Source: Evansella sp. LMS18 (GTDB lineage: Bacteria > Bacillota > Bacilli > Bacillales > Salisediminibacteriaceae). Taken from it: a DNA stretch of 64,000 nucleotides. Positions 46,557 through 64,000 of the stretch are shown piece after piece. Positions within the stretch are counted from its first letter, which is position 1. The number at the start of each line of letters is the position of its first letter. Both the position numbers and the translations under genes were made by a program. The stretch spans positions 3,348,001-3,412,000 of the forward strand of contig NZ_CP093301.1 in the NCBI RefSeq assembly GCF_024362785.1, written 5' to 3'. The notes beneath the pieces were generated by a model. That model worked only from the letters and a program-made list of their open reading frames with translations, was not told the DNA's origin and ran no database searches.

Positions 46557-46774
46557 CGTCTAAATGTCGAAAATCTCTTAATGGAGTGTATAAATGAAAA
46601 TAAAACGAAACGAATATCAAGAATTATCATAAAAGGAACATTTAAATCCAAGATATTTGTCAGTTTATTTAATTTTCCGGGACTATAAGCCTATTTTTAT
46701 TTTCCTGACAAGTTTCCCTAAAATTTATATTTGGATACTAATATAATCTTAGTAAGTTAAGAATTAATAGCCAG

Positions 46775-46894
46775 TCTTCTCTAGAACAGGGCAAACCTAT
46801 TGAAAAGTAGAGACGCAAAGCTTCGGGTCTAAGGATGTAACCGTCTATGACAGCCGGGCTGCCTAGCAGGGCATAAGAGGAGGAGCGGGGGGTA
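46775..46894 (+). promoter_or_regulatory. c-di-GMP-I (GEMM) riboswitch leader
   Basis: The aptamer core spans about 46789-46864. Diagnostic pieces in order are GGGCAAACC (46789-46797), a GAAA-capped hairpin, GACGCAAAGC (46812-46821), GGGTCTAAGG, and the closing TATGACAGCCGGGCTGCC. GGCA (46790-46793) and TGCC (46860-46863) form P1. These are the signature elements of Firmicute class I c-di-GMP riboswitches. No intrinsic terminator lies between the aptamer and the gene. TCTTCTCT (46775-46782) just before the aptamer can pair with AGAGGAGG (46876-46883), the likely Shine-Dalgarno region, so control of translation is the probable output; its direction is not certain. A TATAAT at 46742-46747 is the likely -10 of its promoter, with a weak -35. 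Confidence 0.93.
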
Positions 46895-47026
46895 ATGGAA
46901 AAATCAGAGAACCAAAATCTTGAAGCGGAATGGACGAGGTTATTAGAGGAGGCGAAAGAAATAGGCTTGACTCCTGAACAGGTCAGGGTGTTTTTAACAA
47001 GTAAGAGAAATTTAACCAAAGTTTAA
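46895..47026 (+). CDS. SinI-like anti-repressor peptide
   Basis: A 43-residue peptide starting at ATG 46895, with a purine-rich ribosome-binding region just upstream. Residues 12-34 (EWTRLLEEAKEIGLTPEQV plus RVFL) match the SinI helical hook that binds SinR, and resemble the C-terminal EWSKLVKEAMDSGISKEEF segment of the SinR encoded 0.6 kb downstream. SinI sequesters SinR as a heterodimer and relieves repression of biofilm matrix genes. It is the only gene between the riboswitch and a terminator, so c-di-GMP should directly set its level. AGAGAAC (46906-46912), the complement of a SinR box, lies inside the gene. Confidence 0.85.
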   Translation: MEKSENQNLEAEWTRLLEEAKEIGLTPEQVRVFLTSKRNLTKV

Positions 47027-47081
47027 TATTTTTTTAGTCTGTTTTTTTACATAATCGCATCTGCCAGCACAGGACAGAGAG

Positions 47082-47109
47082 AAACCTTTTAACAGCTGTT
47101 AAAAGGTTT
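47082..47109. terminator. bidirectional terminator between sinI-like and HTH genes
   Basis: AAACCTTTTAACAG is followed directly by its perfect complement, a 28-bp palindrome, with AATCTTTT after it. Confidence 0.82.
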
Positions 47110-47137
47110 TAATCTTTTGGATATTAAAAGGTTCCTG

Positions 47138-47365
47138 CTAATGATGATATTCCTTAAAAGGTTTTTTTTCTTCCAGAGAAGCAAGCAGTGTGATTGGCAA
47201 ATCAAGTGTCCTGAAGATTTTTTTAGTTACATCAATAGAAGGGTTTTTCTTTAAGCCTCTTTCTATATAGCTTAAATATGATTTAGATACACCGGTCATT
47301 CGTGAGAGTTCTGACAGGGAAATCCCTTTTTCTTTTCTTTTCTGTCTAATCACTTTTCCAATCAA
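47138..47365 (-). CDS. HTH-only SinR-like regulator
   Basis: A 75-residue XRE-type protein very similar to the DNA-binding half of SinR (IGKVIRQKRKEKGISLSEL; SKSYLSYIERGLKKNPSIDV). It ends soon after the HTH domain and lacks the SinI-like dimerisation/multimerisation domain. The start was set to TTG at 47365, with AAAGGAGG seven bases upstream. It might compete for SinR operators without responding to SinI, or act as a monomeric modulator. This is an inference. Confidence 0.82.
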   Translation of the reverse strand: MIGKVIRQKRKEKGISLSELSRMTGVSKSYLSYIERGLKKNPSIDVTKKIFRTLDLPITLLASLEEKKPFKEYHH

Positions 47366-47489
47366 AGACAAACCTCCTTTATAAAAAACAAAACAGTCCT
47401 TTTGTTCATTATATAGCACAAAGAGATTTAATTAAAGAGGAAAAAAGAAGAAATAATTAAAGAAAAATGGAGGGATGATGATCTATTTT

Positions 47490-47496
47490 GTTCTCT
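47490..47496 (+). promoter_or_regulatory. SinR-box-like heptamer GTTCTCT
   Basis: GTTCTCT equals the SinR operator consensus GTTCTYT. It lies about 125 bp upstream of the HTH-only gene in the 296-bp spacer before sinR. A single heptamer occurs easily by chance, so this is only suggestive. Confidence 0.35.
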
Positions 47497-47661
47497 ATAA
47501 CGAATTATAACTTTTTTTGAAGCTTTTCAGAATCACCTCAATAAAGTATAATTAAATGCTATTTCAATAAAAATCGTATGTTACGGGTTTTGGGCCATAA
47601 AAAAATGAGCCGGTATTAATCAGCTCATTTTAATGGAATCACATTAATTCATTTCCATTGT

Positions 47662-48000
47662 TTATTTTTGATTCATTTTCCACTTAGTAAACTCCAGGAA
47701 TTGCCGGAATTCTTCTTTAGAAATCCCGGAATCCATTGCTTCTTTAACCAGTTTGCTCCATTCATTGTCAAGGCCGGATTTTACATTCCCAGTATTCCGG
47801 TTTTCCTCGTCGTATAGAAGCTGATCCATCGAGACATCCAGTACTGAAGCTATTTTTTCTAAAAACTGAATGGACGGGTTTGTCTGGATGTTTCGCTCTA
47901 AAGCACTTAAGTACGATTTAGCGACTCCGGCTCTGTCGGCCAGTTCGGTTAAAGTCATACCTGCTTCAGAACGGTACTTTTTTACTCGTTCTCCTATCAT
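47662..48000 (-). CDS. sinR: biofilm master repressor SinR
   Basis: A 112-residue protein with the full SinR architecture: N-terminal HTH (MIGERVKKYRSEAGMTLTEL; VAKSYLSALERNIQTNPSI) and C-terminal SinI-like dimerisation domain (LDNEWSKLVKEAMDSGISK; FRQFLEF). Length equals B. subtilis SinR (111). SinR represses matrix operons and affects motility and sporulation. The ATG at 48000 has AAAGGAGAT upstream; the longer upstream frame is not conserved. It is not in a sinI-sinR operon as in B. subtilis but on the opposite strand to the SinI-like gene. Confidence 0.92.
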   Translation of the reverse strand: MIGERVKKYRSEAGMTLTELADRAGVAKSYLSALERNIQTNPSIQFLEKIASVLDVSMDQLLYDEENRNTGNVKSGLDNEWSKLVKEAMDSGISKEEFRQFLEFTKWKMNQK

Positions 48001-55149: not shown

Positions 55150-55412
55150 AAATTAATTAAGAGAAAACATTTACTGCCTGCGGTGTTGGTGAACTTCGAG
55201 TTTAATTCGAACCGAACACCAATTCACATTGGGAGCCTAAAATTAGAACACGTACAGCATGCCTGGTTAATGGTACGTTCAGTACTTCGGCAGGAAGCTG
55301 GAAATGTTTTTGAAGGCACCCACCTGCCTAGTGCGGGTTCGTGAAATCTGGAAGATAACCGCATTGCGGGCAAACCATGAATAGACACCTTTCAGAGGTG
55401 TCTATTGTTGCG
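55150..55412 (+). ncRNA. ssrS: probable 6S RNA
   Basis: A structured, apparently non-coding transcript between yqgE and pbpA with its own strong promoter and a terminator (ATAGACACCT with AGGTGTCTAT, near 55381-55404). Ends pair: TGCGGT near 55178 with ACCGCA near 55358. The segment ACCGAACACC (55211-55220) would template a product RNA starting GUUCGGU, the same start as the B. subtilis 6S-1 product RNA, and ATTGGGAGCCTAA is also 6S-like. 6S RNA binds SigA-RNA polymerase and mimics an open promoter. The mature 5' end is set by inference from the promoter. Confidence 0.6.
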
Positions 55413-63019: not shown

Positions 63020-64000
63020 GTGCCCAGCACGCTATTAATTGCTTACTGGTGAAAGTCCAGTCTGAGTAAGTGCCAAGACGCTCAGTAGCTGACAGGCAAC
63101 TGGTGGAGAAATCCTAAGGTTGAAGCCCTGTGACAAAGTAACTCCACTTGGAGTGCGAGCAACTTAACAGGTTGTAACATAAAGTGAATCTTGCAGCCTC
63201 GTCAATTAAAACCCTCTTCGGAGGAACAAGGGAAGTCGAGCCTCTCTTAAATGGGCGAAGACCACGGAAGGTGTGTAGAACTTGGAGGGCAGCACCGAAG
63301 TATCCCTCGGGGTATGGAGAGCGACATGTTAAGACAGTAGTTAATGGAACTGGGGATACCCTCCTCGGTCACTTCAAAAGAAGTAAAACAGACACCTATA
63401 AGCCACCGGTGAAATGGTTGACGGACTGAGAGGGAGTCGGAGGGGGTCATAGTACCAATGATGGCAATGACAACACAACATTGTCTAGGGAAGGACGGCA
63501 CAAGCCAATACCCTACTTCGTTCATATGTTCAAAGGAGGTAAGAGTCAGTGAATGCCAGGAAAACGGCTAACTACGCCAATAATGCAAAAGCTCAAGAAC
63601 TCTGGAAAACATTATACCTTTGTGCCAAGGAAAGTGATACTCGTCGGTTTCATGCACTATATGATAAGATTTATCGCCCAGATATCTTATGGGATGCATG
63701 GCAACGTGTGAAACGGAGAAAAGGAAGTGGAGGTGTAGATGAACAAACCTTGGAAGATATCATGACTCATGGCGAGAAGAACTTTCTCAATGAGCTGTAC
63801 TTGGAATTAAAAGAGAAGAGATATCATCCGCAACCAGTTCTTCGAACCTACATTCCTAAAGGTGATGGTAAGAAACAAAGACCATTAGGAATCCCAACAA
63901 TTAAGGACCGAGTAGTTCAAATGGCAACAAAGCTTGTGATTGAACCAATATTTGAGGCTGACTTCCAGGAATGTTCCTATGGCTTTCGCCCAAAACGGAA
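63020..64000 (+). mobile_element. group II intron, 5' part
   Basis: The 5' splice boundary is placed at GTGCCC (63020). About 530 nt of structured, mostly stop-rich RNA with domain I-like blocks (CTGGTGAAAGTCCAG; GGAGAGCGACATG; GGTCATAGTACC) precede an intron-encoded protein. The 3' end, with domains V and VI, lies beyond the window. It inserted 12 bp downstream of a Rho-independent terminator, a site that does no damage to flanking genes. Confidence 0.85.
63549..64000 (+). CDS. ltrA: group II intron reverse transcriptase/maturase, 3'-truncated
   Basis: A frame starting GTG at 63549, with AAAGGAGG nine bases upstream, and open to the window edge (about 150 codons). It reads RT domain 0 and 1 motifs: KGSGGVDEQT, ELKEKRYHPQPVLRTYIPKG, KKQRPLGIPTIKDRVVQMA, PIFEADFQECSYGFRPKR. 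This is the LtrA-type maturase that aids intron splicing and retrohoming. The catalytic YADD, maturase and any endonuclease domains lie outside. Confidence 0.93.
   Translation, partial: MNARKTANYANNAKAQELWKTLYLCAKESDTRRFHALYDKIYRPDILWDAWQRVKRRKGSGGVDEQTLEDIMTHGEKNFLNELYLELKEKRYHPQPVLRTYIPKGDGKKQRPLGIPTIKDRVVQMATKLVIEPIFEADFQECSYGFRPKR

Follow-up and report, generated by a model that had tools for sequence, protein, structure and literature searches.

A c-di-GMP-I aptamer in the sinI leader of Evansella sp. LMS18 recurs across the Bacilli and probably acts as a translational ON switch for SinI

We know of no action of c-di-GMP on SinI or SinR in Bacillus subtilis. In this bacterium, SinI antagonises SinR, and transcription of sinI is activated by Spo0A (PMC8876208). 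In the B. cereus group, c-di-GMP riboswitches have been described for cbpA (ON) and mcpA (OFF) (PMC7793685, PMC7423583), while in B. thuringiensis sinI expression was higher at high c-di-GMP, by a route left unstated in the relevant passage (PMC7793685). Two further reports bring such an RNA close to the Sin proteins, i.e., a 2015 annotation of RNA-seq leaders that lists "(c-di-GMP)-sinI" for Bacillus methanolicus MGA3 (BMMGA3_08510; PMC4342826, Table 4), and a 2023 paper on Paenibacillus, in which a c-di-GMP-I riboswitch is proposed to act in antisense on a SinR homologue (PMC9943018).

The locus described here lies in a stretch of 64,000 nucleotides of Evansella sp. LMS18 (contig NZ_CP093301.1, positions 3,348,001 to 3,412,000; referred to as the window), and consists of the following features:

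46565..46571, + strand: candidate Spo0A box TGTCGAA, 215 nt 5′ of the aptamer (exact heptamer, also at –215 in Evansella clarkii)
46742..46747, + strand: candidate –10 element TATAAT in a conserved promoter block (46700–46773)
46775..46782, + strand: anti-Shine-Dalgarno strand UCUUCUCU, overlapping the P1 5′ strand and pairing with 46876–46883 in the minimum-energy fold
46780..46866, + strand: c-di-GMP-I (GEMM-I) riboswitch aptamer (RF01051, 82.4 bits, gathering threshold 35, full length)
46781..46784, + strand: P1 5′ strand (CUAG), complementary to 46863–46866, P1 being positioned by the helix rule
46863..46866, + strand: P1 3′ strand (CUAG), from the minimum-energy fold
46878..46883, + strand: Shine-Dalgarno (SD) site AGGAGG, 11 nt 5′ of the ATG, read from the sequence
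46895..47026, + strand: sinI-like gene of 43 codons (PF08671, 38.5 bits, above 31.4; 1b0n_B, E 6.7e-5)
47081..47110, no strand assigned: terminator-like inverted repeat between the convergent genes (13-pair stem with a + strand tail)
47138..47371, – strand: gene for an HTH-only SinR/SlrR-like protein, start codon uncertain (PF01381, 59 bits, no SinI domain)
47662..48000, – strand: sinR (HTH_3, 60.7 bits; SinI domain, 54.9 bits)

The window has a sinI-sinR pair as in B. subtilis, but no aptamer was seen at the sinI-sinR locus of the latter; RF01051 had no match in 14 control genomes, B. subtilis included, and at a surveyed locus with a B. subtilis-like SinR (L082) sinI precedes sinR without an aptamer. 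Like the riboswitches of cbpA and mcpA, the window unit points to c-di-GMP control of surface life, but its predicted target is a repressor antagonist instead of an adhesin or a chemotaxis receptor (PMC7793685, PMC7423583). The Paenibacillus case concerns the same aptamer class, likewise opposed to a SinR homologue, but section 20 of that paper names no SinI, whereas the window unit has one (PMC9943018). In five class-level genomes of ~6.4–6.9 Mb (L255–L259), aptamer-SinI and SinR are convergent, with a sense-strand SinI frame 3′ of the aptamer; this may account for the published Paenibacillus layout without antisense action (PMC9943018). B. methanolicus MGA3 is likewise listed with a c-di-GMP riboswitch before sinI, of a class unstated in Table 4, so that the initial annotation erred in supposing that no such case had been described; this precedent amounts to one table row and one sentence, and that entry offers no platform, direction, test or survey (PMC4342826). 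The breadth of the arrangement was not found in the open PMC literature, which omits most subscription papers and preprints. All parts belong to known families, and the conserved circuit they form is, in the literature covered, undescribed beyond that one table row.

The initial annotation had recognized the aptamer by its motifs, all of which were found in the sequence, and had proposed a covariance search with RF01051. This search returned a match at 46780–46866 on the + strand with 82.4 bits (E 1.1e-14), well above the gathering threshold and over the full length of the model (1–87 of 87), in agreement with the c-di-GMP-I class originally named. The aptamer ends 28 nt before the sinI ATG, and a hairpin of 46861–46864 with 46869–46872 offers an alternative to P1 in the minimum-energy fold, as it takes the first two bases of the P1 3′ strand. 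With six RF01051 matches in the 4.9 Mb window genome, two of them directly before a SinI gene, chance does not explain the proximity: at this density ~0.01 of 144 genes would be expected to have an aptamer in front, compared with the 88 observed among relatives (see below). A third short SinI gene of the window genome (L065) lacks an aptamer. Elsewhere in the window, a 6S RNA (55172–55376, + strand; RF00013, 85.5 bits) and a group II catalytic intron D1–D4 region (63043–63182, + strand; RF02003, 109.8 bits) were found.

The 43-codon gene encodes a stand-alone protein with a SinI domain above the curated cut-off (PF08671, E 9.3e-10, profile positions 1–27 of 28), the composition of SinI anti-repressors. 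Residues 3–36 align with residues 5–38 of the SinI chain of the solved B. subtilis structure (1b0n_B), in a comparison in which four PPR repeat proteins rank higher without any individually significant stretch. The NCBIfam SinI equivalog NF046031 was missed (35.2 bits vs. a cut-off of 80); since its model name suggests a Bacillus-specific equivalog, the window protein is assigned, by sequence, to the Pfam SinI family and not to NF046031. The SinI identity proposed at the outset therefore stands, and the 13-pair stem downstream closes the unit as a single-gene one, as had also been proposed. Similarly, the neighbour on the opposite strand, ending at 47662 and convergent with the aptamer-sinI unit, is the full-length SinR it had been taken for: it matches B. 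subtilis SinR (1b0n_A) with 136.7 bits over residues 2–113 and has the SinR domain plan, i.e., an N-terminal HTH and a C-terminal SinI-type dimer domain. The gene at 47138–47371, correctly described as HTH-only, has no SinI domain, which leaves the full-length SinR as the one neighbour that SinI could plausibly bind directly. By homology to 1b0n_B, SinI would bind and inhibit SinR in the window species. Sited between sinI and sinR, the HTH-only protein might compete with SinR for operators.

The locus is closely conserved in E. clarkii DSM 8720, whose SinR is 96% and SinI 84% identical to those of the window, and which has the HTH-only gene as well (L168, 3085–3363). The sinI loci of both species align with the promoter block, anti-SD strand, aptamer and SD all kept, and the stretch 46700–46773 differs at the single position 46713.

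A survey of related genomes for aptamer-sinI synteny, as suggested in the initial annotation, found the pairing at 88 of 144 short SinI frames of relatives, at 60 of 80 SinR loci and in 19 of 25 genomes with a short SinI outside the window's order. The first of these counts comes from 150 relatives (RF01051 matched in 138, PF08671 in 110 and the window SinI in 96), in which short SinI loci (open frame of at most 100 aa) were drawn from the PF08671 and window-SinI matches listed and scanned with a covariance model, R1, built from the window aptamer and the 30 best RF01051 loci of relatives. None of these 30 loci has a SinI gene nearby, so that R1, the window copy apart, was not trained on the pairing that it was used to count; it also follows that c-di-GMP-I aptamers have targets besides sinI. 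The 88 aptamers stand directly upstream on the same strand, at a tight 35–80 nt from aptamer end to SinI domain, and come from 63 of 82 genomes and 25 of 31 family-level groups, with a share of 49/66 short frames in the window's family and 39/78 outside it; the remaining 56 of the 144 frames lack an aptamer. Three loci fetched for an already known aptamer (L165, L166 and L167) were excluded from the 144. At least 12 units coincide by coordinates with RF01051 matches above Rfam's own cut-off. Weak aptamers were included in the survey counts (L138, 30.5 bits; L117, 48.9; L221, 38.4; L280, 36.2; and four others of up to 50 bits). Among long SinR-type frames of relatives, 2 of 59 have an aptamer, and these two are probably extended frames of short SinI. 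At L051 and L131, two SinI-type frames lie in tandem next to sinR, and a separate aptamer precedes each of them.

The SinR-based survey took the best 80 of at least 436 loci, picked regardless of aptamers, and is therefore biased to window-like SinRs; its loci partly overlap the SinI survey (L168 is the same place as L032, and others likewise repeat places). A short SinI lay within 2.5 kb at 67 of the 80 loci (13 had none), and 60 of these 67 had the aptamer, one of them weak (L221). In 43 of the 60 the unit is convergent with sinR, and in 17 it lies upstream on the sinR strand. The genera in this survey include Evansella, Salipaludibacillus, Alteribacter, Metabacillus, Peribacillus, Sutcliffiella, Mesobacillus, Cytobacillus, Rossellomorea, Neobacillus and Salinibacillus, and the seven loci with a short SinI and no aptamer belong to Niallia (two), Halalkalibacter (two), Alkalihalobacillus, Evansella and an uncultured Bacillus. 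On a tree of the 80 SinR proteins, presence of the aptamer changed 9 times compared with 17.8 times for shuffled labels; with few columns and many open forks, the tree speaks for inherited clustering and for no ancestral state. Two records, labelled Chryseobacterium sp. ISL-80 (L217) and Paenibacillus bovis DE0126 (L237), have Bacillaceae-like SinR loci and are probably misnamed.

In a class-level sample of 250 genomes, PF08671 matched 45, of which 31 lie outside the window's order. The set taken from the latter comprised 43 regions in 25 genomes, with every short frame listed except one (in G288). An aptamer stands in front of 23 of 50 short-frame domain matches (a total in which the L297 frame enters three times and the domain threshold is looser, 0.05 vs. 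0.01), representing 8 of 9 families. All 23 aptamers found in this set precede a short SinI, five of them scoring at most 50 bits. A single 3.3 Mb genome of the sample (G182) has ten SinI-domain matches. The window unit is one instance of a class-wide arrangement.

To see how such an aptamer could act on sinI, the sequence between aptamer and gene was considered. A transcription terminator platform was rejected, as none of 126 units has a terminator-like element within 45 nt 3′ of the aptamer; the comparison set (18 of 30) was scanned over a wider, 120-nt stretch, so that these counts are not on equal terms, and two of the four other aptamers of the window genome pass the same rule. Instead, the flanks follow two designs that would hide the SD site. 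The window's family has a 5′ anti-SD element, mostly pyrimidine and usually continuing into the P1 5′ strand, and in 39 of 41 units the SD lies within the best duplex that the 5′ flank can form with the linker (no shuffle control; four duplexes are weak, at –3.5 to –4.7 kcal/mol). In contrast, many units outside the family have an SD hairpin immediately 3′ of the aptamer (CCUGAAAUAC-loop-GUAUUUUAGG or a variant close to it) that comprises the P1 3′ strand and the first part of the SD site, so that hairpin and P1 are mutually exclusive. Across a set of 43 sequences (A5), picked by the pattern of the hairpin 5′ half and hence partly selected for pairing, 97.7% of the hairpin cells are paired, compared with at most 53.4% when the hairpin is slid. 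Compensatory change is limited to 2 of the 10 pairs and to 4 cells, a modest amount (levels reached in 43/500 and 18/500 shuffles of these related, non-independent sequences), and P1 itself pairs weakly on A5 (11, 33, 38 and 42 of 43 for its four pairs, the outer positions being poorest). On the – strand of L025, a similar SD hairpin (GAAAAUACU...AGUAUUUUAGGAGG) follows an aptamer at 1501–1585, where a SinI ORF was not found.

The effect of P1 on the SD site was modelled as the mean unpaired probability of the SD, folded freely or with P1 forced. L117, L138 and L166 were left out, as were 14 more units without a P1 by the helix rule, and 74 of the 88 units remained. With P1 forced, the SD became more accessible by over 0.1 in 56 of the 74 and less accessible by over 0.1 in two (L036 and L161). 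The mean rose from 0.246 to 0.467 in the 41 units of the window's family (a rise of 0.220) and from 0.322 to 0.635 in the other 33 (a rise of 0.313), compared with a mean rise of 0.086 in both groups for 25 sets of shuffled flanks (maxima 0.155 and 0.147, respectively), although the underlying sequences are related and not independent. In the window's family, the bound state resembles the shuffles (0.467 vs. 0.473) and the free state lies below every shuffled set (0.246 vs. a minimum of 0.329), so that the difference arises because the free state is more hidden and not because the bound state is more open, which favours an ON switch. While the group rise thus exceeds that of shuffled flanks, the shift of the window's own copy is small: its SD stays mostly paired (0.13 free, 0.21 with P1 forced), its anti-SD strand can still form a 6-bp helix across a bulge when P1 is forced, and its leader is no more stable than its own shuffles in a single-sequence fold (z 1.07). 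The SD of E. clarkii is static as well (0.36 to 0.37). Since these two copies barely move, their direction is carried by kinship and not by their own fold.

Upstream of the aptamer, the heptamer TGTCGAA, which we take to be the Spo0A box consensus, occurs within 300 nt of 43 of 125 aptamer-sinI units, compared with 6 of 124 stretches downstream of sinI. Markov-1 resamples gave a mean of 3.8 and a maximum of 9, and among 200 permuted heptamers no sequence other than the box reached 43, these sequences again being related and not independent. Box positions vary widely among units, and in the window the box lies far from the candidate –10. The latter, at 46742, has a poor –35, and no sigma-70-type site was called on the + strand between 46500 and the aptamer. 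The Spo0A-type boxes fit a joint control by Spo0A and c-di-GMP.

All in all, we consider it probable that the sinI leader contains a c-di-GMP-I riboswitch that switches SinI translation ON via P1 and acts jointly with Spo0A. Without ligand, P1 would be open and the SD site locked in a helix. In the window, the pyrimidine element that immediately precedes P1 would provide this helix, and many other genera would use the hairpin that borrows the P1 3′ strand. Binding of c-di-GMP would close P1 and withdraw these strands from the SD-hiding helices, freeing the ribosome site; SinI synthesis would then rise, SinI would bind SinR, and SinR-repressed genes would switch on. As Spo0A probably gates sinI transcription too, SinI would need both signals. 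We consider the ON direction likely for the window copy and very likely for the hairpin type.

The reverse direction, in which closing of P1 by c-di-GMP would let the anti-SD strand stack on P1, hide the SD and lower SinI, draws on the window itself, where P1 and the 6-bp anti-SD helix can coexist and the SD is poorly accessible in both states. We nevertheless regard such an OFF switch as unlikely, as the 41 units of the family show the opposite design, with only the free state set apart from the shuffles, and as the hairpin type outside the family excludes P1 by sharing its 3′ strand. The limited shift of the window SD could also mean that the aptamer is a mere leader remnant that has lost its switching, but the core is intact, full-length and high-scoring, and the site retains an aptamer in 33 family-level groups (25 among relatives and 8 others in the class sample), which makes this reading highly improbable.

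Equally improbable is that the aptamer targets sinR, either in antisense or in the form of a small RNA that is released, rather than sinI in cis. The Paenibacillus proposal (PMC9943018) and the 43 convergent units of the SinR survey would accord with this, yet all 60 aptamers near SinR directly precede a short SinI frame on the same strand, and 17 of them lie upstream of sinR on its own strand, where antisense action is impossible. The same pattern in the relatives and class surveys says less on this point, since those loci were chosen by SinI. Moreover, a terminator-like stem parts the window sinI from the next gene, and the SD-hiding flanks point to translation of the ORF that follows. A translational ON switch of sinI remains the most likely reading.

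The window genome has 10 GGDEF matches, one weak and one with an internal stop. Judging by position, the targets of the other aptamers would be the frames behind them. Among these are a MotA-like protein and an Flp-like pilin, each narrowly missing its Pfam cut-off, as well as a DUF192 protein, a GAF-domain protein beside a GGDEF match, a Cache-domain protein and a frame without a family. PF12389, which we take to cover TasA, had no match in the window genome, while the family does match in B. subtilis; EpsG (PF14897) is present with 190.5 bits. The initial annotation had proposed that c-di-GMP itself sets the dose of SinI and thereby matrix repression. Its first part, a direct input, is strongly backed by conservation, whereas matrix repression would be a putative output, PF12389 being missing though EpsG is present.

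Finally, because the aptamer-sinI pairing recurs in many related bacteria, c-di-GMP probably feeds directly into their biofilm switch. A wider view, which we put forward tentatively and rate slightly below an even chance, is that a two-input Sin gate, with Spo0A acting on transcription and c-di-GMP turning on translation, is common and perhaps usual in Bacilli, that B. subtilis is an exception without the riboswitch, and that the Paenibacillus antisense case is the same unit with its sinI ORF overlooked. A tiny overlooked ORF may make a sense riboswitch appear antisense. If the unit works as read here, a single RNA would link c-di-GMP signalling with the master repressor of biofilm formation across many genera. 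The textbook Sin circuit rests on the B. subtilis arrangement and, if the two-input reading is true, that arrangement would be the exception.
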